From Microcella indica (GTDB lineage: Bacteria > Actinomycetota > Actinomycetes > Actinomycetales > Microbacteriaceae), in the NCBI RefSeq assembly GCF_013414345.1, contig NZ_CP058670.1, positions 2,356,001 through 2,420,000 of the forward strand: a stretch of DNA of 64,000 nt. Direction: 5' to 3'. Both the position numbers and the translations under genes were made by a program. A model generated the notes under the pieces. The model was not told the DNA's origin, ran no database searches, and saw nothing but the letters and a program-made list of their open reading frames with translations. Positions 13,117 through 60,262 of the stretch are shown here, piece by piece; position 1 is the stretch's first letter, and the number at the start of each line of letters is the position of its first letter.

Positions 13117-14541
13117 GGCTCTTCGCAATCAAGCGGGTAGGTGGGGTCTGAATCCGCCGCTTTCGAGCAGGCTGCGGGCGATGTAGTTGCTGAGGTTGCG
13201 GAAGCCGAGCGCACTGCCGCGGAGGTGTTCGAGTCGGCCGTTGATCGCCTCGGTTGGACCGTTCGAGGTGCCGGGCAGGTCGAAATAGGCCAGCACGTCG
13301 CCGGCGCGGCGATGCAGGGTGCGGCCGAGCTTGCCCAGCTCGACGAGGACTTCGGGAACGCCGTGACGCAGCGAGTCGATCACCGCTTGCAGGGCTCGGC
13401 GCCCGGCGGCTCGGTCGGGGTGCCGGTAGGCGGCGACGATGCTCTGGTAGACGGCCCAGGTGGTCTCGACCTCGACATGCTCGTCGATGGCGAACACCGC
13501 CTCGATGCGGGCGCGCTGTCGGTCGGTGAGGAACGCTTCCCCGGTGTGCAGGGCGCGGCGAACACCATAGAGCGGATCGCCGGCGTGGCCGCGGTGGCCG
13601 AGGGTGTGCTGTTGGACGCGTTGCCGGGTGCGGTCGAGGGCGTCGCCGGCGAGCTGGACGACGTGGAACGGGTCCATCACCTCGATCGCGTCGGGGAGGG
13701 CTTCGGCGGCGGCGGTCTTGAAGCCGGTGAACCCATCCATCGCGACCACCTCGATCCCGGCCCGGAACGCCGGGGACTGCTGCTCGAGCCAGGTCTTGAA
13801 CACCGGCTTCGATCGGCCCTCGACCATGTCCAGCAGCCGCGCCGGACCCGTCCCGTCACGCACCGGGGTCAGGTCGATGACCACGGTCACGTAGCGGTCC
13901 CCGAACCTCGTGTGCCGCCAGACGTGTTCATCGACACCGATCACGGTGACCCCATCGAAGCGGGCCGGATCGCCGATCAGCCTCCGACGGCCTTCCTCCA
14001 AAACAGCACTGTTGGCCGTGTGCCAGGACACCCCGAGCCGAGCTGCGACTCGGCTGATCGTGAGATGGTCCACGACGAGCGCGGTGAGCGCCCAGGTGAG
14101 CGCTCCACGGGACAGCTTCGACCTCGGCTCAGCCGCCGCGGTGCTGTCCTGCCGCCACGACCTGCCGCATCCCGAGCACCGGTAGCGGCGCACCCGCACC
14201 AGCAACGTCGTCGGCCGCTCGCCGAACGGGACATGCGCGAGCCGTCTCGCCTCGGTGCCGCGCGAGACACCCTCCGCCCCGCACCACCGGCACCACTGGT
14301 CCGGCTCCACGATCCGGCACTCCAACACCGCCCGATGTGCCTCGATCCGCTGCCCGGCGACCACGAGTCCGAGCTCCTCGAGACGGCAGAAGACAGTCAG
14401 ATCGGCGGGGTCGAAGGTAGCGTTGAGCACGTCGAGGTCTTTCTCGGATGGTGAGCCTGAAGAACTTCCATCCTGGAAGACCTCGACCCTGTCTCCAGAC
14501 CCCGACGCGCTACCGACCTACCCCCTCAACTGCGAAGAGCC
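13117..14541 (-). mobile_element. ISL3-family insertion sequence, copy 1 (intact)
   Basis: 1425 bp with terminal inverted repeats starting GGCTCTTCGCA at both ends; the inner parts of the repeats are similar but not identical. It is flanked by a perfect 8-bp target duplication GGTTTTGG (13109-13116 and 14542-14549), the size known for ISL3. It contains one complete transposase gene. A second, nearly identical but opposite copy lies at 51395-52815. Confidence 0.95.
13129..14430 (-). CDS. ISL3-family transposase
   Basis: DDE transposase of 433 residues, full length for ISL3. The N-terminal zinc-binding part shows CRIVEPDQWCRWCG and later RYRCSGCGRSW. A helix-turn-helix-like segment (LTISRVAARLGVSWHTANS) follows at about 120-140. 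Catalytic acidic residues are in GVDEHVW, AMDGFTGFKTAA and, near the end, GPTEAINGRLEHLRGSALGFRN. The start is GTG at 14430 (MLNATFDPADL). Both frame and ends are intact, so this copy may be active and could mobilise the defective copy 2. Confidence 0.93.
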   Translation of the reverse strand: MLNATFDPADLTVFCRLEELGLVVAGQRIEAHRAVLECRIVEPDQWCRWCGAEGVSRGTEARRLAHVPFGERPTTLLVRVRRYRCSGCGRSWRQDSTAAAEPRSKLSRGALTWALTALVVDHLTISRVAARLGVSWHTANSAVLEEGRRRLIGDPARFDGVTVIGVDEHVWRHTRFGDRYVTVVIDLTPVRDGTGPARLLDMVEGRSKPVFKTWLEQQSPAFRAGIEVVAMDGFTGFKTAAAEALPDAIEVMDPFHVVQLAGDALDRTRQRVQQHTLGHRGHAGDPLYGVRRALHTGEAFLTDRQRARIEAVFAIDEHVEVETTWAVYQSIVAAYRHPDRAAGRRALQAVIDSLRHGVPEVLVELGKLGRTLHRRAGDVLAYFDLPGTSNGPTEAINGRLEHLRGSALGFRNLSNYIARSLLESGGFRPHLPA

Positions 14542-50809: not shown

Positions 50810-50885
50810 GGCTCTGTAGCTCAGTTGGTAGAGCGCACGACTGAAAATCGTGAGGTCACGGGATCGACGCCCGTCGGAGCCACCA
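50810..50885 (+). tRNA. tRNA-Phe(GAA)
   Basis: Acceptor stem GGCTCTG/CGGAGCC, discriminator A (50882) and encoded CCA (50883-50885). Anticodon loop CTGAAAA (GAA). T arm ACGGGATCGACGCCCGT. It is the last core feature before the accessory island. Confidence 0.95.
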
Positions 50886-51195: not shown

Positions 51196-51394
51196 CTACA
51201 ACTTTTTTCGACGGGCGAAGAGTGGCCGCCACTCGGCATCGTTCACGAGTCCGCTGCCCCACAGAGCGGTCAGTGTCATCGTCGGCGTGTTGAATGAAGA
51301 AATCACGAGGAATCCCTCATTTCCATAGCCGAGCGCTCGCTCTTGAGAGTGCTCGCTGTCACTGGTTAAGGCGAGTCCCACCCCACGGCAATAT
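51196..51394 (-). pseudogene. 3' end of the HD/phosphoribosyltransferase-like gene, cut off by ISL3
   Basis: Read from the ISL3 border (51394) to TAG at 51196, this piece encodes the last 60 or so residues of the gene at 52816-55294: CRGVGLALTSDSEHSQERALGY, then GFLVISSFNTPTMTLTALWGSGL and EWRPLFARRKKL. The NTPxxTLxxLW and WxPLFxR patterns are, as I recall, typical C-terminal features of PRTase-CE-type phosphoribosyltransferase-like proteins. Joining at the GGCAATAT duplication keeps the frame with no stop. It has no start of its own and is presumably silent. Confidence 0.82.
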
Positions 51395-52815
51395 GGCTCT
51401 TCGCAGTTGAGGGGGTAGGTCGGTAGCGCGTCGGGGTCTGGAGACAGGGTCGAGGTCTTCCAGGATGGAAGTTCTTCAGGCTCACCATCCGAGAAAGACC
51501 TCGACGTGCTCAACGCTACCTTCGACCCCGCCGATCTGACTGTCTTCTGCCGTCTCGAGGAGCTCGGACTCGTGGTCGCCGGGCAGCGGATCGAGGCACA
51601 TCGGGCGGTGTTGGAGTGCCGGATCGTGGAGCCGGACCAGTGGTGCCGGTGGTGCGGGGCGGAGGGTGTCTCGCGCGGCACCGAGGCGAGACGGCTCGCG
51701 CATGTCCCGTTCGGCGAGCGGCCGACGACGTTGCTGGTGCGGGTGCGCCGCTACCGGTGCTCGGGATGCGGCAGGTCGTGGCGGCAGGACAGCACCGCGG
51801 CGGCTGAGCCGAGGTCGAAGCTGTCCCGTGGAGCGCTCACCTGGGCGCTCACCGCGCTCGTCGTGGACCATCTCACGATCAGCCGAGTCGCAGCTCGGCT
51901 CGGGGTGTCCTGGCACACGGCCAACAGTGCTGTTTTGGAGGAAGGCCGTCGGAGGCTGATCGGCGATCCGGCCCGCTTCGATGGGGTCACCGTGATCGGT
52001 GTCGATGAACACGTCTGGCGGCACACGAGGTTCGGGGACCGCTACGTGACCGTGGTCATCGACCTCCCCGGTGCGTGACGGGACGGGTCCGGCGCGGCTG
52101 CTGGACATGGTCGAGGGCCGATCGAAGCCGGTGTTCAAGACCTGGCTCGAGCAGCAGTCCCCGGCGTTCCGGGCCGGGATCGAGGTGGTCGCGATGGATG
52201 GGTTCACCGGCTTCAAGACCGCCGCCGCCGAAGCCCTCCCCGACGCGATCGAGGTGATGGACCCGTTCCACGTCGTCCAGCTCGCCGGCGACGCCCTCGA
52301 CCGCACCCGGCAACGCGTCCAACAGCACCCTCGGCCACCGCGGCCACGCCGGCGATCCGCTCTATGGTGTTCGCCGCGCCCTGCACACCGGGGAAGCGTT
52401 CCTCACCGACCGACAGCGCGCCCGCATCGAGGCGGTGTTCGCCATCGACGAGCATGTCGAGGTCGAGACCACCTGGGCCGTCTACCAGAGCATCGTCGCC
52501 GCCTACCGGCACCCCGACCGAGCCGCCGGGCGCCGAGCCCTGCAAGCGGTGATCGACTCGCTGCGTCACGGCGTTCCCGAAGTCCTCGTCGAGCTGGGCA
52601 AGCTCGGCCGCACCCTGCATCGCCGCGCCGGCGACGTGCTGGCCTATTTCGACCTGCCCGGCACCTCGAACGGTCCAACCGAGGCGATCAACGGCCGACT
52701 CGAACACCTCCGCGGCAGTGCGCTCGGCTTCCGCAACCTCAGCAACTACATCGCCCGCAGCCTGCTCGAAAGCGGCGGATTCAGACCCCACCTACCCGCT
52801 TGATTGCGAAGAGCC
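51395..52815 (+). mobile_element. ISL3-family insertion sequence, copy 2 (defective transposase)
   Basis: 1421 bp, same ends (GGCTCTTCGCA) as copy 1 but in the opposite orientation. A perfect 8-bp duplication GGCAATAT flanks it (51387-51394 and 52816-52823). It is four bases shorter than copy 1 because of two separate 2-bp deletions in the transposase gene. It splits the HD/PRTase gene. Confidence 0.95.
51506..52803 (+). pseudogene. ISL3-family transposase with two frameshifts
   Basis: Residues 1-186 are identical to copy 1 (13129-14430) up to VTVVIDL. A GA dinucleotide is then missing near 52063 and the frame ends in GA plus stop. The next piece (VRDGTGPARLLDMVEGRSKP, from about 52071) matches copy 1 until an AC is missing near 52328 (QRVQQH), after which the last part reads in a third frame (FAIDEHVEVETTW to HLPA). 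No functional transposase can result. The ends remain good substrates for the enzyme from copy 1. Confidence 0.92.
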
Positions 52816-55294
52816 GGCAATATTCGATGAACTCATCCAGTTCGGTGACTCCATCCAGCTGGGAAACCCGAGGAAGGTCCGAGTCGCTCACAAGCGTAAA
52901 TGTCGTCACGTCCATCCCAAGAGAAGTGAGCTCGACATTGATGCGCTCTAGACCACTGCGTCGCCCAGCGGCTGCGACGATCGCAATCTTCTTGCCACTC
53001 GCGAGCCTTTCCTGTAGCTCGGGGGCGATCGGGTGACGAGCTTCGCCAAGTCCCTCAGCATCCTCACCTCCAAAGTACGACCTGAAGATACTGATAATCG
53101 ATGACCCTCTGCCAACGATGTCATCGATGAACACGATCGGCTTGTCGTCGAGAACGGCCTGATGGAGAGGCGCAGGTTCGGAGCCATGTCTCCGGCCCGC
53201 GTCCCCTGCGAAGTACGTGTGAAGTGCAGATCCATCCTTTGGATCCCCAATCGGCACGAGCCCGGCCCCTGCGAATTCCGGGTTCTCGGAGAAAAACCGT
53301 TCAAGGGTCTGGTTAATTCGCTGACGATCAAGCACTAGAACGCTCTCGACTACCGCTAACGCCGCCGCCTGATACTTCTCCGGAAACTGAGCAACCCAAT
53401 TCTGGATTCTCGTCGGATTCATAATTCCTGTCTCGACTTTGCCGGCTGCGTCGGCCCGGCTTGGTCCCATGTATCCGGCCAGCGCCTTCGCTGAGTCTTC
53501 GATTCTCTTCTTCGCACCTGCAGTCAAGAGAAAATCAGACACTGGGCGCAAGTCTGCTGGGTAGTCGTCATATAGTCCGGCAGCCACCAACCGCTTGTGT
53601 AGCTCGCGGATAGGTTCGTTGTCGATCTTGGCGTACGAGCGCATCCGCTCGGGAATCATGATCCGGCGCGAGGTTCTTAGTACTACTTGCGTCGCTAGAT
53701 GCACGAAGGCCGCAATCTCGCGCGGCGCGAATACGAACCCCACATCGCGCGTGTTGATGTAAGCGTCGGCCCACCCTCGCGTCTCTGCGCTGACTTGCCC
53801 AAGGGTCACCAGTTCACGTTCGTCATCAATAATGTATGCGCGACTCTGATCGGTCATGGAGTCGTCGGTGAAGATCTTCGGCGGATCAAACTGAATGTAG
53901 TGGTGGAGCATATCTGGGGATGACGGCAAAGCCAGCCCGGGCTCAACTTTGGATACCCAATCTGCAACAAGACCTGCAACTTGCTTCGCGAGTTGCACAC
54001 GCCCGGCCAACTTGTCGGCATCGCGGATCAGCTCTTCGATGCCCTCTCGTTGCTGCTTCTCATCTCTGTATGCGTCAAAAGGCATCTTCTGGGCGAACGC
54101 GAACGACCGCACAAACAAGTCGCGCGTGCGAAATCGGTTTACGATATCGGCCGCGACGGTGAGTTCGGCCGACGGGGCGTCATTGGCTGCGGCCAGAACT
54201 TCCAGATCCGAAAGCGTAAGTCCGAGAAATCGATCGTCGTGGATCATCAACGGCATGATCGTCGAAGCCTTCGAAATCGCTGACTTGGCCGTGTCCGTGA
54301 AGGCTCGAAGCATGCTCTCTGCTGCGCGCACCTTGTGGTGGCGATAGATCTTGTCGTGCATCAGGCTTCGGCTCAGTGCTACCTCATGAAGTGTGCTAGC
54401 CCCGGATCGTGCGATCGCTACGATCTTGTGGGTGCCGCCACTGTCTTGAAGTACGTCCATGAGCTCTTGGGGCAGCCGATCAGTTCGAACCTCGAGCACA
54501 CGTGCCTTTTGGGTGAGACGAGTGACATCGGTTACCACCGGCACCCCTGACATCATCGCGTCTCGCGTCATGTAGTCGAGCTTGTCGCAGTCGAACGGCC
54601 CGCTGATCATCTCGTGAATCAGTGGATATGACTGGTCATCGGACCTTCCCACGATGCAGTTGGCTATGCGTCTAGCGATATCTGTCGGCACAGCCTCCCC
54701 AGCAAGTCGAAACGCTTGGTCGAAAAGCTCGCTGACCGCCGGCGAGAGCAGCATGTAGTGCGCAGCAATTTCAGAGAGCTGCGGGTCACCATCGCTGCCA
54801 ATTGTCTCGGTGAACTCGAGTATCAGTGTTGTGATGTCGCGGTCATGCTTGAGCGCGTTCTCGACAGCATGAGACATAAGGCCGTGGCCGACATCATGAC
54901 AAAGGCCTGCCATACGCAATGTTTTCGCCCAGTCGTCATCTATGCGTCCGAAGTCGGCACCGTCTTCATGCCGGTTGATCGACTCGGTCAACACAGACAC
55001 CTGCTGACATGTGCCTAGACTGTGCTCGAGTCGCGTGTGATTCGTGCCTGGATACACATAGTGAGCGACGCCGAGTTGACGGATCCTACGAAGACGCTGG
55101 AGCAGTGGGCTGTCAAGCACAACGACTTCCGCTGGGGAGAGGGAGATCGTTCCCCAAACGGGATCGTTGAACTCCTTGCCGCTGGCCGATCGACCGGCGC
55201 GAGTTGACAGTCCCTTGATGTAGTCGCCTAGGAGTTCATCACACCACGAGTTGATCTCTTGGACATACCTTGCCAGGATCTCACCCAAGGACAC
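52816..55294 (-). pseudogene. HD-domain / phosphoribosyltransferase-like fusion protein, truncated by ISL3
   Basis: GTG 55294 opens 826 residues of the original protein; the frame then runs 11 codons into the ISL3 end and stops at 52781. Residues 60-250 form a SAMHD1/dGTPase-like HD domain: HTRLEHSLGT (His91), LCHDVGHGLMSH (His133-Asp134, His137) and GPFDCDKLDYMTRDA (Asp240), all metal and catalytic positions present. Residues about 260-680 are helical and unassigned. A phosphoribosyltransferase-like domain follows, with PIVFIDDIVGRGSSI (about 719-733) as PRPP-loop equivalent and IAIVAAAGRRSG. The missing 62 residues are at 51196-51394. The product may lack folding of its last strands. Role proposed: nucleotide-depleting defence effector (inference). 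Confidence 0.8.
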
Positions 55295-55302
55295 CTACCA
55301 GA

Positions 55303-55737
55303 TCATGAGTACGCGGGATATGACGCCAGGAATTTCGCAGCAGATGCGCGGTAGAGATCTGGCGTTCCTGGAAGCTTACTCAGGTACGGCTCGGCATCCG
55401 ACCTTGAAAGCTTGAGTCGCATGTCAACGTACTCGGGATTGTCCAGGCTGATGAGGTCACGCTGTACTGCCCGAGTAAGGGCGTCGCGAACCGCAGGCGA
55501 GTCTCCGTACACACGATTCACTCTCAACGCGAACCTAGGCTCGACGTTTGCCGACGCGGCAAGCTCCCTAAATATCTCGAACGCGGTCACCACAGCTTCG
55601 TAGAACACCCGGCCCCGGATGTTGACGACTGACACTCCAATCTCTGCAAGCGCTGCAACGAGACCGGTGGTGAAGTCATCAACGGAGGCTTCCTCGACGT
55701 CGTTGGCTGAAGCGGGGTTGTCAAGTACTGATCGCAC
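55303..55737 (-). CDS. Uncharacterised partner of the HD/PRTase protein (144 residues)
   Basis: GTG 55737 has GGAGG five bases upstream; the frame is open further to a TTG at 55770, but that start lacks a ribosome site. The product is soluble, mostly helical: VEEASVDDFTTGLVAALAEIGVSVVNIRG, FYEAVVTAFEIFRELAASANVEPRFALRV, then SPAVRDALTRAVQRDLISL, and a tail DLYRASAAKFLASYPAYS. I recognise no family. It ends 8 bp before the HD/PRTase start, so the two form an operon, and it is intact while its partner is broken. It might be a sensor, inhibitor or antitoxin-like partner (inference). Confidence 0.6.
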   Translation of the reverse strand: MRSVLDNPASANDVEEASVDDFTTGLVAALAEIGVSVVNIRGRVFYEAVVTAFEIFRELAASANVEPRFALRVNRVYGDSPAVRDALTRAVQRDLISLDNPEYVDMRLKLSRSDAEPYLSKLPGTPDLYRASAAKFLASYPAYS

Positions 55738-55781
55738 GGTATCCTCCGAGCCGGCCCAGAGGCCGAGCAAAACATCAAGAG

Positions 55782-55968: not shown

Positions 55969-56244
55969 ATGCCTGGTCGCCGCTCAAGAGAGAACAGTGA
56001 GTGGCGCGACGAGTCGATCAAGATAGCCCAAACTCTGAGGCAGGCACGGAAAGGTCGGGGCCTCACACAGGAGGATCTAGCCGTGCAATCGGGCGTCAAG
56101 CTCTCTTCTCTGCGGGCTATAGAGGACGGCCGAGTGACTGAACCTGGCATCTTCAAGGTGGTCCTCCTCGCAAAGGCTCTCTCTATCGACCTGAATGATC
56201 TACTGAGGAATGTGCACCCTCCTCACTCACGGCTAGACGCCTGA
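55969..56244 (+). CDS. XRE-family helix-turn-helix regulator
   Basis: 91-residue DNA-binding protein. The domain reads IAQTLRQARKGRGLTQEDLAVQSGVKLSSLRAIEDGRVTEPGIFKVVLLAKALSIDLNDLL, with the HTH at EDLAVQSGVKLSSLRAIE. It lies divergent to the 144-residue protein and HD/PRTase genes. Palindromes in both promoter spacers (55938-55949, 55792-55803) make it the probable regulator of this module and of itself. Codon use is clearly less GC-rich than the core genes, indicating horizontal gain. Confidence 0.85.
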   Translation: MPGRRSRENSEWRDESIKIAQTLRQARKGRGLTQEDLAVQSGVKLSSLRAIEDGRVTEPGIFKVVLLAKALSIDLNDLLRNVHPPHSRLDA

Positions 56245-56450
56245 GCGATCGTGGCAACATCTAGCGTGAGTTAACGCGACTCAGGGCCTCAACGAGTCGT
56301 CGCCAAAGGTGTCGTGCGGCTATGAACGGCGCGCCGGCCGGGACAACTCGAGGGTCAACTAGTTATTGGCGAACATGAGCGTCCTCCACCGTGAAACGCG
56401 ATGTCACTCCTATCGTCGAGACTGAGACACGCGACGACGAAAGTGAGCTC

Positions 56451-56846
56451 ATGAAGAAGCACTTCACCGTGGTCGGCGCCGTGATTGTTCGCGACGAGCT
56501 CGTGTACTGCGCTCGTCGCGGGCTCAACGGAACCTTGCCGGGCTTGTGGGAGTTTCCTGGTGGAAAAGTTGAGGCCGGTGAGTCCTTTGAACAAGCCTTG
56601 GTCCGAGAGATCGATGAGGAGCTGGGCTGCGACATCTCCATCATCGAGCCTGTCGAGACAACCACGCACGAGTACGACTTCGCCGTCATCACTCTCGCCA
56701 CCTACTTGTGCGAGCTGGTGTCAGGAGAGCCACGGTCCAATGAGCACGCTGAAGAGACTTGGCTGCCGATGGGAGAACTACAGAAACTGGATTGGGCTCC
56801 TGCCGACATACCTGCGGTAGAGACGTTGCGAGCCCGAGGTGCCTGA
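56451..56846 (+). CDS. Nudix hydrolase (MutT-type)
   Basis: 131 residues from ATG 56451 (MKKHFTVVGAVIV), which matches MutT N-termini; a GTG at 56391 adds 20 residues but has no ribosome site. The Nudix box is GGKVEAGESFEQALVREIDEELG with all catalytic Glu residues. Such enzymes hydrolyse oxidised or noncanonical nucleoside triphosphates. The last 8 bp overlap the start of the helicase gene, so both are made together. A role in clearing or signalling nucleotides for the helicase system is inferred. Confidence 0.9.
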   Translation: MKKHFTVVGAVIVRDELVYCARRGLNGTLPGLWEFPGGKVEAGESFEQALVREIDEELGCDISIIEPVETTTHEYDFAVITLATYLCELVSGEPRSNEHAEETWLPMGELQKLDWAPADIPAVETLRARGA

Positions 56847-59757
56847 GGACCCCACCGAGTTCTGGAGATCCCCACTCGGCCGAGAAACCGAATTCGGATA
56901 CCTGCTTGAGTCCTCACTCATCCCGCACAACCTCAACCCTGAAGTTGTTCTCAACAACGAGAACTCATCGGTCTTGCGCGTTCTGCGTCGAGAACTAAAG
57001 CAGGCCGAACGGTTCCTCTTCTCCGTGGCCTTCGTCACCCCGAGAGCGCTCGCGCTGCTCAAGCAGGAGCTGGTGGACTTCGACGGCACAGGAACGATCG
57101 TGACCTCTGACTACTTGGGCTTCAACACTCCCGGTGTGTTCAAGGAGCTCAAGGCGCTTGAGAAGATCGGGGTCTCGGCACGCATCCACAAGAGCGCCGC
57201 GTTCCACGCAAAGGGCTACATCTTCCACCGTCCGGATCGCTCTATCGCGCTGTTCGGAAGCGCAAACCTCACGGAGTCAGCGCTGGTTGCCAACCTGGAG
57301 TGGAACATCAAGGTCTCTGGCCTGCCGCAGAGCAACCTCTCTCGCCAGCTGGAGGCATTGGAGATCGAGCAGCTGCAGAACTCTCTTGACCTGTCGAGCG
57401 ACTGGATTGAGGAGTACGCGGCGCGTCCCAGACCGACCACCGTCTGGAAGGCCCGCGAGGCACCTCCATCGAACGAAACCACGCCACCGCTCGCGCTTGA
57501 GCCGCACTTCACCCCGAACGCCATGCAACGCGAAGCGCTCGCCGCAATCGAAAAGATGCGTAGCAAGGGAGCTCGCCGCGTCCTCGTGATTTCCGCAACC
57601 GGCACCGGCAAGACTGCCCTCGCGGCATTCCATGTTGGCCTCGTCGATCCGCCACGCTTCCTCTTCATCGTTCATCGTGAGCAGATCCTGGATCGAGCGA
57701 TCGAAGAGTTTCGAACGATTCTGGGTCTCGACGACAAAGATGTCGGCAAGCTCGCGGGCGGAACGAAAGAATCCGGCAAGCGTTTCGTCTTCGCGACGAT
57801 TCAGAGCCTCTCTCAGCCCGACGTCTTGAACCACGTGCGGCCGGATGAGTTCGCCTACGTGGTCGTCGATGAGTCGCACCACATCGGGGCTCCGACGTAC
57901 CGGCGGGTGATGGACCACCTCACGCCGGAGTTCACCATCGGGCTCACCGCGACGCCGGAACGCTCAGACGAGTCCGACGTCTTCGAGCTCTTCGACTACA
58001 ACGTCGCCTACGAGATCCGCCTTCAAGCGGCACTCGAGGCCGACATGTTGGCGCCCTTCCACTACTACGGCATTGCAGATGTCGAGTTCGAAGACGGCAC
58101 GACAACGGATGACGCCACCAGCGTTGAACGGCTGACATCACGACTGCGTGCGGAACACATCGTGAAGAATCTGGAGCTCTACGGGCAGGTCGGAACCCCT
58201 CCGAAGGGGCTGATCTTCTGCAGCCGGGTCGAGGAAGCTCGCGAACTTTCGTCCCAACTGAACGAGCTCACCCTTCACGGCCGGCCACTCAAGACCGTGG
58301 CACTTTCCGGGATGGACTCTGTCGAGAGCCGACTGGAAATCGTTACCCAACTCGACCGAGGAGAGATCGACTACATCCTCACAGTTGACATCTTCAACGA
58401 GGGCGTGGACATCCCTTCGGTCAATCAGGTCGTCATGCTGCGACAGACGAAGTCCGCCATCGTCTTCGTTCAGCAGCTGGGTCGAGGACTACGGAAACAC
58501 TCGGTGAAGGAATACACGGTCGTCATTGACTTCATCGGCAACTACGCCAATAACTACCTGATACCGATCGCGCTGTTCGGGGATCACTCCCAAGACAAGG
58601 AGTCGTTGCGCCGGAGACTCATCGAGGCAGAAGAACGCGGAGTGCTCGCGAACATCTCCAGTATCCGCTTCGACAAGATTGCTCAGAAGCGAGTTCTCGA
58701 TTCGGTGGCGGTAACAAAGCTCAACAGCGCTGCTCTCTTGAAGCCGGCGATTGAAGCGATGCGATCACGACTCGGCCGAACTCCGCGACTCATGGACTTT
58801 GCCGAATCAGACTCCACTGATCCGGTGGTGCTCGCGACAAGCTATCGCCACTTCCCGGAACTACTGAGAAGAACGCTCAAGCTAGAGAACTCGATCACGA
58901 GCCGCCAGGGGAAATCACTGGACTTCCTCGGGAACGAAGTGCTCGCGGCCAAGAGACCGGCGGAAGCGGAAATCCTCTTACAGCTCCTAGGCGGCACACC
59001 CGTATCTCTGTTGGACCTCGAAACGGCCATCGCGGATCCGGAACAGGAGTCGGATCGCAGCCTGACCCTCAGCGCCCTTCGTACCCTCACCTTCGAGTTC
59101 CTCACCGAAGCCGAAGGAACACGCTACGGAGACCCACTCGTTCGTGAAGACGCAGGCGGAATGTACCGCTTGAGCGACGAGTTCCGAGAGGCGATCGCCA
59201 CAAGTCAAGACTTCGCGAACGAAGTCAACGACCTGCTCTGGACTGCCCTCTCGGTCATCCCTCGAAAGTACGGCGGCTCCGCACCATTCGCGATTGGCCG
59301 TCAGTACTCGCGGAAGGACGCTTCCCGACTTCTCCGCTGGCGGTCGAACATGCAAGGCACGATCTTCGGTTACAAGGTCGACTCGGCCACGAAAACGTGC
59401 CCCATCTTCATCACCTACCACAAGGCCGATGACGTGATCGCGAGCACCCAATACGAGGATGAGCTGCTAGATACAAGGACGCTCACGTGGTTCACGCGAA
59501 GTCGCCGCACGCTAGAGAGCGCAGAGGTCAAGGCCATCGTGAACAACGCGGTGACGATCGACGTCTTCGCCAAGAAGGACGACAGCGATGGGACTGACTT
59601 CTTCTATCTCGGCCGAGCACGAGCTGACCAGCACTTCCAGACCGACATGCTCGACAAGGACGGAAAGCCGATCCCCGTAGTGCGGGTCACCCTCCGGTTC
59701 GACGAGCCGATTCCGCAAGGAATCTTCGACTACTTTCAGCCGACCATTACGGAGTAA
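56839..59757 (+). CDS. Phospholipase D-like nuclease / superfamily 2 helicase / DUF3427 protein
   Basis: 972 residues from GTG 56839, overlapping the Nudix gene by 8 bp. The N-terminal PLD-like (HKD-type) nuclease spans about 20-160 with HAKGYIF (His123, Lys125) and FGSANLT (about 139-145). The helicase has ISATGTGKTA (251-260), VVVDESHHIG (341-350), GLTATPERSD and QQLGRGLRKH (arginine finger). The last 450 residues are the DUF3427 region. PLD-helicase-DUF3427 proteins are scattered in bacterial accessory DNA and often paired with a Nudix enzyme. A restriction-like or DNA-repair role is plausible but not shown. Confidence 0.88.
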   Translation: MPEDPTEFWRSPLGRETEFGYLLESSLIPHNLNPEVVLNNENSSVLRVLRRELKQAERFLFSVAFVTPRALALLKQELVDFDGTGTIVTSDYLGFNTPGVFKELKALEKIGVSARIHKSAAFHAKGYIFHRPDRSIALFGSANLTESALVANLEWNIKVSGLPQSNLSRQLEALEIEQLQNSLDLSSDWIEEYAARPRPTTVWKAREAPPSNETTPPLALEPHFTPNAMQREALAAIEKMRSKGARRVLVISATGTGKTALAAFHVGLVDPPRFLFIVHREQILDRAIEEFRTILGLDDKDVGKLAGGTKESGKRFVFATIQSLSQPDVLNHVRPDEFAYVVVDESHHIGAPTYRRVMDHLTPEFTIGLTATPERSDESDVFELFDYNVAYEIRLQAALEADMLAPFHYYGIADVEFEDGTTTDDATSVERLTSRLRAEHIVKNLELYGQVGTPPKGLIFCSRVEEARELSSQLNELTLHGRPLKTVALSGMDSVESRLEIVTQLDRGEIDYILTVDIFNEGVDIPSVNQVVMLRQTKSAIVFVQQLGRGLRKHSVKEYTVVIDFIGNYANNYLIPIALFGDHSQDKESLRRRLIEAEERGVLANISSIRFDKIAQKRVLDSVAVTKLNSAALLKPAIEAMRSRLGRTPRLMDFAESDSTDPVVLATSYRHFPELLRRTLKLENSITSRQGKSLDFLGNEVLAAKRPAEAEILLQLLGGTPVSLLDLETAIADPEQESDRSLTLSALRTLTFEFLTEAEGTRYGDPLVREDAGGMYRLSDEFREAIATSQDFANEVNDLLWTALSVIPRKYGGSAPFAIGRQYSRKDASRLLRWRSNMQGTIFGYKVDSATKTCPIFITYHKADDVIASTQYEDELLDTRTLTWFTRSRRTLESAEVKAIVNNAVTIDVFAKKDDSDGTDFFYLGRARADQHFQTDMLDKDGKPIPVVRVTLRFDEPIPQGIFDYFQPTITE

Positions 59758-59800: not shown

Positions 59801-60262
59801 ATGAGCAGCGAGAGCCGAGCATCCACCAGCACCGACGGCTTCACCGCCGAGGAGCGCGCCGCCATGAAGGAGCGCGCCGAAGAGCTGCGCGCGCAGAAGG
59901 GTCGCACGAAGGGCGCCGCGAAGGCGGCCGCCGAGCTGCAGGACCTGCTCGACGCGATCGCGAAGCTGCCCGACGACGCCGATCGCTCCCTCGCCGAGCG
60001 CCTGCACGTCGTCATCACCGAGGCGGCCCCGCAGCTCGCCCCGCGCACCTGGTACGGCATGCCCGCCTACGCGCTCGACGGCAAAGTGCTGTGCTTCGTA
60101 CAGCCGGCCAGCAAGTTCGACACCCGCTACACGACCCTCGGATTCAACGACACGGCCCAGCTCGACGACGGCGCCATGTGGCCGGCGTCGTTCGCCGTCA
60201 CCTCGCTGGGCCCCGCCGAGCAGAAGGCGATCACCGAGCTCGTGCAGCGCGCCATCGGCTGA
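59801..60262 (+). CDS. DUF1801 / YdhG-like protein
   Basis: 153 residues. The N-terminal third is a charged helix (ERAAMKERAEELRAQKGRTKGAAKAAAELQDLL). The rest, EAAPQLAPRTWYGMPAYALDGKVLCFVQPASKFDTRYTTLGFNDTAQLDDGAMWPASFAV, is the DUF1801 (YdhG) fold. A Bacillus relative was proposed to be an iron chaperone, but that is not general. GC-rich codon use returns here, marking the right edge of the island. ATG 59801. Confidence 0.85.
   Translation: MSSESRASTSTDGFTAEERAAMKERAEELRAQKGRTKGAAKAAAELQDLLDAIAKLPDDADRSLAERLHVVITEAAPQLAPRTWYGMPAYALDGKVLCFVQPASKFDTRYTTLGFNDTAQLDDGAMWPASFAVTSLGPAEQKAITELVQRAIG

Follow-up and report, generated by a model that had tools for sequence, protein, structure and literature searches.

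What kind of gene occupied positions 51,196 to 55,294 of the window, the 64-kb stretch of Microcella indica contig NZ_CP058670.1 analysed here, before an ISL3-family insertion sequence (IS) split it, and what could its product have done? The gene structure gives a firm answer to the first part, as the two coding pieces at this locus are one interrupted gene. With regard to the second, we propose, at a probability of roughly 0.6, a two-gene anti-phage cassette with this gene as its large component: a SAMHD1-type HD module and a PRTase-CE (phosphoribosyltransferase-like) effector are fused in one protein and paired with a partner of about 140 residues. In this strain the ISL3 element has most likely disabled the cassette.

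One gene interrupted by an ISL3-family element

The interruption is certain and far beyond chance. Searched separately against Pfam, the transposase fragments at 51395–52815 match Zn_ribbon_ISL3 (E = 1.8e-6) and DDE_Tnp_ISL3 (1.4e-18), with HTH_Tnp_ISL3 at 4.6e-5 staying below that profile's cut-off; the element's ends match in inverted orientation over their first 11 bases and imperfectly beyond; and the 8-bp target-site duplication GGCAATAT occurs only twice on both strands of the window, once at each end, so that transposase domains, inverted repeats and duplication all coincide on this interval. Read apart, the gene pieces contain no inner stop codon (zero in each) and are in phase, their 2479 and 191 nt summing to a multiple of three and, by this arithmetic, to 889 residues plus a stop. 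A sequence-only reading of the locus had posited just such a gene, split by ISL3 and restored to 889 residues without stop or shift when one copy of the duplication joins the pieces, and it holds in each of these respects. The insertion event is in itself ordinary.

The same reading had placed the C-terminus of a PRTase-CE domain in the cut-off segment, and profile searches with the separate pieces recover both this family and HD. On the start-side piece Pfam finds HD (5e-5, residues 88–167), HD_assoc_2 (9e-6, residues 292–423) and PRTase-CE (PF24390; 3.8e-13, residues 630–796, profile positions 1–167 of 253), and on the stop-side piece, queried as 65 residues of which two come from the duplication, the end of the PRTase-CE profile (211–253 of 253, 2.4e-10); both PRTase-CE matches lie over the curated cut-off. 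The two pieces align in order on intact relatives of 894–916 amino acids (aa), of which the proteins from Microbacterium sp. Leaf151 (locus L008) and Agreia sp. Leaf210 (L009) cover the PRTase-CE profile from 1 to 253 and that from Actinoplanes subtropicus (L010) from 2 to 253. In all five relatives compared, the stop-side piece matches the C-terminal end, its alignment beginning beyond the stretch covered by the start-side piece or no more than two residues from where that stretch ends (for L008, 71% over 55 aa), and neither a relative without the 51196–51394 segment nor a frame break on joining was found. Furthermore, the motif NTPTxxLTxLW and a final WxxxxPRR recur in 4/4 relatives with a complete C-terminus; L007, which ends early, has the first (as AVW) and stops before the second.

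The genome (2.585 Mb, one contig) contains the IS in seven near-identical copies, besides an eighth copy at 71%. Those six that lie outside the gene, each of 1425 bp, are mutually identical, and the copy inside it differs from them by two 2-base deletions only; 8-bp duplications border 7/7 copies, a count that covers the near-identical ones and not the 71% copy. One full-length copy lies within the window, at 13117–14541 on the minus strand, and is bordered by an 8-bp duplication of its own. In the full copies the transposase strand carries the longest stop-free frame, of 462 codons; in the copy that splits the gene the longest has 306 codons and lies on the opposite strand, and we infer this copy to be itself defective and no longer able to make its transposase. 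Because there are zero substitutions between IS copies and no inner stop in either gene piece, the insertion looks recent, in agreement with the sequence-only reading. That reading had noted neither the defect in this IS copy nor the partner gene and the wider family described below. A Methylocystis homologue (L024, 4941–6889) also ends at an annotated IS6-family IS, its similarity to the Rhizobium protein stopping at Rhizobium residue 391, where an overlapping annotated IS6 transposase gene begins; this HD gene type therefore seems to have been hit by IS at least twice.

That the insertion inactivates the gene, as had been suggested, is likely rather than proven: the last 63 residues, and with them the end of PRTase-CE, are lost, whereas the insertion leaves the HD part unaffected, and a protein of 837 residues could still arise. 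Such a truncated protein might still function, for example as an HD-only module, given an intact HD site and a frame that stays open into the IS, yet the lost segment is the conserved PRTase-CE end carried by every relative with a complete C-terminus, and we regard continued function as very improbable. As judged from its sequence, the gene has most likely lost its function in this Microcella indica strain.

The HD module, its C-termini and its small partner

Among 398 family genomes four match the protein, the window's own included, and only the window's and G077, the Agreia genome, do so over most of its length, the other two matching in short stretches. Long matches occur in G515 and G755 among 396 order genomes; 396 phylum genomes searched at E 1e-30 return the window's own genome only; and a profile of the middle region finds G1220 among 296 class genomes, with a weak match (4.9e-4) in G328 (L027). 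A named scan adds Microbacterium sp. Leaf151, Agreia sp. Leaf210, Actinoplanes subtropicus and a Bifidobacteriaceae metagenome-assembled genome, and plasmid searches add relatives in Sphingobium, Rhizobium, Desulfosarcina and Methylocystis. The searches listed 20, 45 and 6 plasmid records, of which six were examined, and 6 and 13 phage records; beyond the examined records, the plasmid and phage matches listed concern mainly the HD region, a second Methylocystis record and repeat matches to the examined records excepted. A search of viral contigs with two queries, an actinobacterial and a rhizobial protein, yielded no relatives. Eleven distinct loci were compared (the window, L007/L029, L008, L009, L010, L011, L028 from G1220, L020, L021, L022 and L024), with L002 and L006, contained in L009 and L011, each counted once, and with the weak or partial matches L003–L005 (G045, G259) and L027 set aside. 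A Thermomicrobium locus (L023), which encodes a 431-aa HD protein with no small gene upstream according to its annotation, the DNA itself not having been scanned, was not counted as a member.

On sequence comparison the HD module belongs with the SAMHD1 type. SAMHD1 chains match it at E of about 1e-30, and the structure 2hek at 4e-37, in sequence searches; the nine HD-site positions, comprising the metal site and the H/E pair, are identical in 10/11 homologues (L007 is without three of the nine), which bears out the earlier statement that the HD site is intact. In the alignment the positions matching SAMHD1 K116, N119, D137, Q142 and R145 are likewise kept in ten of the eleven, and mutations of D137, Q142 and R145 in the AL1 site of SAMHD1 are reported to lower tetramerisation and hydrolysis (PMC7045340). 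A Foldseek search with an AlphaFold model of the Agreia HD/PRTase protein returned 539 matches, 160 of them at E ≤ 0.001; each of the 50 listed is to SAMHD1, and their TM-scores are low.

The C-terminus varies among the members. A PRTase-CE C-terminus is recognised by profile in the window, L008, L009, L010 and L028 (profile 1–253 in the last), and L007 and L011 align with these members at the C-terminus, L011 running off its contig. At residue 721 lies VFIDDIVGRGSSI, which fits the pattern of a phosphoribosyl pyrophosphate (PRPP)-type loop; it is similar in 6/6 PRTase-type relatives and least typical in L011. In the Sphingobium, Rhizobium and Desulfosarcina proteins (L020, L021 and L022) the HD and middle regions are followed by a different C-terminal domain with E112, D141, E151 and K153 invariant in 3/3, which is presumably PD-(D/E)xK-nuclease-like by its residue pattern.

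A small open reading frame (ORF) adjoins the HD gene in 10 of the 11 loci, upstream, co-directional and 2–39 bp away in eight of them and divergent in the Actinoplanes and G1220 loci. The intact Agreia pair spans 7564–10679 of L009 and the intact Rhizobium pair 4571–7460 of L021. The partners align over stretches of 132–150 aa (the longest listed ORF of L010 has 195 aa, that of L011 206 aa); those of the six actinobacterial loci align, at 37–61% identity to the window's, and the other four align with one another at 35–67%. The window partner has no Pfam, PADLOC or NCBIfam match at E 0.1, and profile searches with the window, Agreia, Rhizobium and Desulfosarcina partners gave no credible family match. 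The AlphaFold model of the window partner is confident (pLDDT 86.9), and 0/231 of its Foldseek matches reach E ≤ 0.001; the weak ones, many to winged-helix proteins (ORC4, MukE, Lamassu 9uxh_D), were not built on, none being significant.

The genomic slot and the defence reading

The cassette lies in a slot that varies within the genus, bounded by tRNA-Phe (ending at 50885) and by core sequence from 59784 (Table 1). The tRNA stretch is matched at least partly in 26/26 genus genomes searched, with G235 the best of 25 relatives (98%), and slot contents come from three of these relatives: about 11.8 kb in G235, about 1.2 kb in G310, and in G137 about 11 kb, which include two partial repeats of tRNA-Phe. 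The G235 slot (L043, 2315–13176) encodes a cytosine methylase (best DruM 1.9e-85, DrmMII 1.5e-46), a 1621-aa protein (best TmtA 6.6e-46), DrmA (1.9e-195) and DrmB (1.4e-68), a set that we call DISARM-like on the basis of these matches. A repeat of the tRNA-Phe 3' end was sought at the far side of the island and not found, so that a complete integrative element is not shown.

Table 1. Positions in the window of the interrupted gene, the element that splits it and flanking features.
Feature	Position	Strand	Remarks
tRNA-Phe	50810..50885	+	left edge of variable slot
HD/PRTase-CE gene, stop-side piece	51196..51386	-	final 63 residues with stop codon; profile positions 211-253 of PRTase-CE
Target-site duplication GGCAATAT, left copy	51387..51394		
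ISL3-family IS	51395..52815	+	1421 bp; disrupted transposase frame
Target-site duplication GGCAATAT, right copy	52816..52823		inside start-side piece
HD/PRTase-CE gene, start-side piece	52816..55294	-	826 codons and one base; with 11 further residues read from the IS, the frame stays open to 52781 (837 aa)
Partner gene	55303..55770	-	155 aa from TTG, 144 aa from ATG (used here); stop 8 bp before HD gene start
XRE-type helix-turn-helix gene	55969..56244	+	divergent from cassette; possible regulator
Core gene	59801..60262	+	right edge of variable slot; DUF1801-like by eye

Within the window's own slot, a Nudix gene (PADLOC PDC-S07, 7e-51) overlaps a PLD/helicase/DUF3427 gene (mREase_IV, 3e-210) at 56391–59757, and the two are likely a second defence pair. 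In Agreia, an ApeA-type gene (L009, 10876–12177; PF18862, 2.1e-13) lies just beyond the cassette.

PRTase-CE exceeds its cut-off in 5/246 class genomes and in 0/14 controls, and apart from the window and the HD fusion of G1220 the matches are L053, L054, L055 and L056 (G1190, with one in-frame stop). In L055 it adjoins a retron III-A reverse transcriptase (RT; 9e-147) and also matches PRTase_III-A. L053 (3036–8259) and L054 (4016–6921) carry it as a stand-alone protein beside an ORC-CDC6-like ATPase, L053 with CARF and methylase matches in addition.

It is because of the slot, which holds DrmA/DrmB in G235, the neighbours (mREase_IV and PDC-S07 in the window, ApeA-type in Agreia) and the presence of PRTase-CE in other defence-type operons that we read the cassette as an anti-phage system, a role suggested by context. 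The alternative of a metabolic enzyme of nucleotide salvage that merely resides on an island agrees with the action of both domains on nucleotides or PRPP in known families and with the lack of phage results found for this architecture; it sits poorly, however, with the patchy distribution of the gene (4/398 family genomes, two over most of the protein), with the defence genes beside it and in its slot, and with the different C-terminus of other members, and we consider it improbable.

In the anti-phage reading, the HD module (about residues 35–560) most likely binds (deoxy)nucleoside triphosphates, (d)NTPs, at SAMHD1-like allosteric and catalytic sites, and phage replication would change the nucleotide pool and thereby the state of the module. 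PRTase-CE, as effector or co-effector, would then act on PRPP or nucleotides and stop phage or cell growth, while the partner would restrain the large protein or deliver the trigger; with the end of the effector removed by the recent insertion, the system is most likely disabled here. A more specific version, which we put forward as a tentative possibility, is that this bacterial SAMHD1 is mainly a nucleotide-pool sensor, whose (d)NTP-driven and partner-gated HD assembly switches on an exchangeable effector, which would be PRTase-CE in the actinobacteria and a nuclease in Alphaproteobacteria and Desulfosarcina. If true, it would amount to a modular "SAMHD1-as-sensor" immune architecture.

The HD dNTPase could instead be the effector itself, depleting dNTPs as dGTPase or Clover does, with the C-terminal domain regulating it by making or removing a nucleotide signal. 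The HD site intact in 10/11 homologues would suit this arrangement, as would Clover, where a dGTPase effector is restrained by a nucleotide that its partner makes and the system is triggered through the nucleotide pool (PMC12265719). The nuclease-like C-terminus of other members nevertheless fits an effector better, PRTase_III-A stands beside an RT in L055, and type III PRTase is called the typical effector in PMC12548924; we thus hold an HD effector to be rather unlikely.

Several observations weigh against the anti-phage cassette as proposed. The D, Q and R at AL1-aligned positions are also present in 2hek and hence not special to this HD family; the Agreia model is weak (pLDDT 61.5, pTM 0.52), and its top SAMHD1 match in Foldseek reaches TM-scores of 0.25/0.43. 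For the nuclease reading of L020–L022 there is no credible Pfam match, the best PDB sequence match being a sulfotransferase at E 0.55. The partner was not found in G755 by tblastn, where HD homology starts only at L009 residue 129; homology between the actinobacterial and the other partners is unproven (hhalign probability 2.6%, E 0.018, 39 columns); and in R. leguminosarum a lone partner-like ORF (L057, 4875–5360) occurs in a 10-kb stretch whose ORFs include no HD gene. Some SAMHD1-like HD proteins serve housekeeping functions, and our literature search found no phage-challenge results for the HD/PRTase-CE architecture.

Comparison with known systems

The closest worked-out precedent for a nucleotide-gated HD defence is Clover. 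It likewise comprises two genes, a dNTP-hydrolysing HD enzyme (the dGTPase CloA) and a partner (the nucleotidyltransferase CloB; PMC12265719). The window's partner, in contrast, matches no nucleotidyltransferase family in Pfam, PADLOC or NCBIfam and none of its 231 Foldseek hits is significant, and the window's HD protein is of the SAMHD1 type (dGTPase model TIGR01353 at 3.9e-4, below cut-off) with a fused C-terminal domain. Anti-phage dGTPases are HD superfamily hydrolases as well, but their profiles match only weakly (PADLOC dGTPase 3.4e-4; NF041026 0.047, far below its cut-off). SAMHD1 itself shares the HD core and the conserved catalytic and AL1-type positions, whereas the window protein is bacterial, has no SAM domain in Pfam scans, carries an extra C-terminus (PRTase-CE, or nuclease-like in relatives) and has a small neighbour gene.

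Type III-A retrons have the PRTase_III-A/PRTase-CE domain in common with the cassette, yet in the window it is fused to HD, no RT occurs among the six proteins scanned, and only tRNAs reach the Rfam gathering score. The ORC-CDC6-like operons use the same Pfam family, there as a stand-alone protein beside an ATPase. A phosphoribosyltransferase also serves in the anti-phage DprA + PRTase system of P2-like phages (PMC9122126), where the partner is DprA. A figure legend of PMC13092281 names a further PRTase system. We considered readings as a retron, as Clover or as a housekeeping enzyme and place each of them below a two-gene anti-phage cassette.

Among the titles and abstract openings retrieved, none describes an HD/PRTase-CE architecture; we do not claim it as unpublished, and the bioinformatic source paper of Clover may treat related architectures. 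The gene pair is thus an uncharacterised, modular antiviral candidate and a putative variant of known nucleotide-targeting defence. It joins the fold of the animal antiviral protein SAMHD1 to a domain of bacterial immune operons, with a C-terminus that varies on a constant HD module, and because of this fusion and variation it poses a testable question, namely whether a bacterial SAMHD1 senses phage-driven nucleotide changes and signals to a fused effector. The pair further offers a way into the role of PRTase-CE, including that in retrons and ORC-CDC6-like operons.

Two further features of the relatives' loci concern their flanks. In Agreia, a MerR-type gene (L009, 6822–7364; over cut-off) is oriented divergently from the cassette, and similarly placed MerR-type genes are seen in Rhizobium, below cut-off, and by eye in Sphingobium and Methylocystis. 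In Microbacterium sp. Leaf151, a Schlafen-group-3 helicase gene with a weak GIY-YIG match (L008, 3077–4915) lies about 2.6 kb before the cassette.

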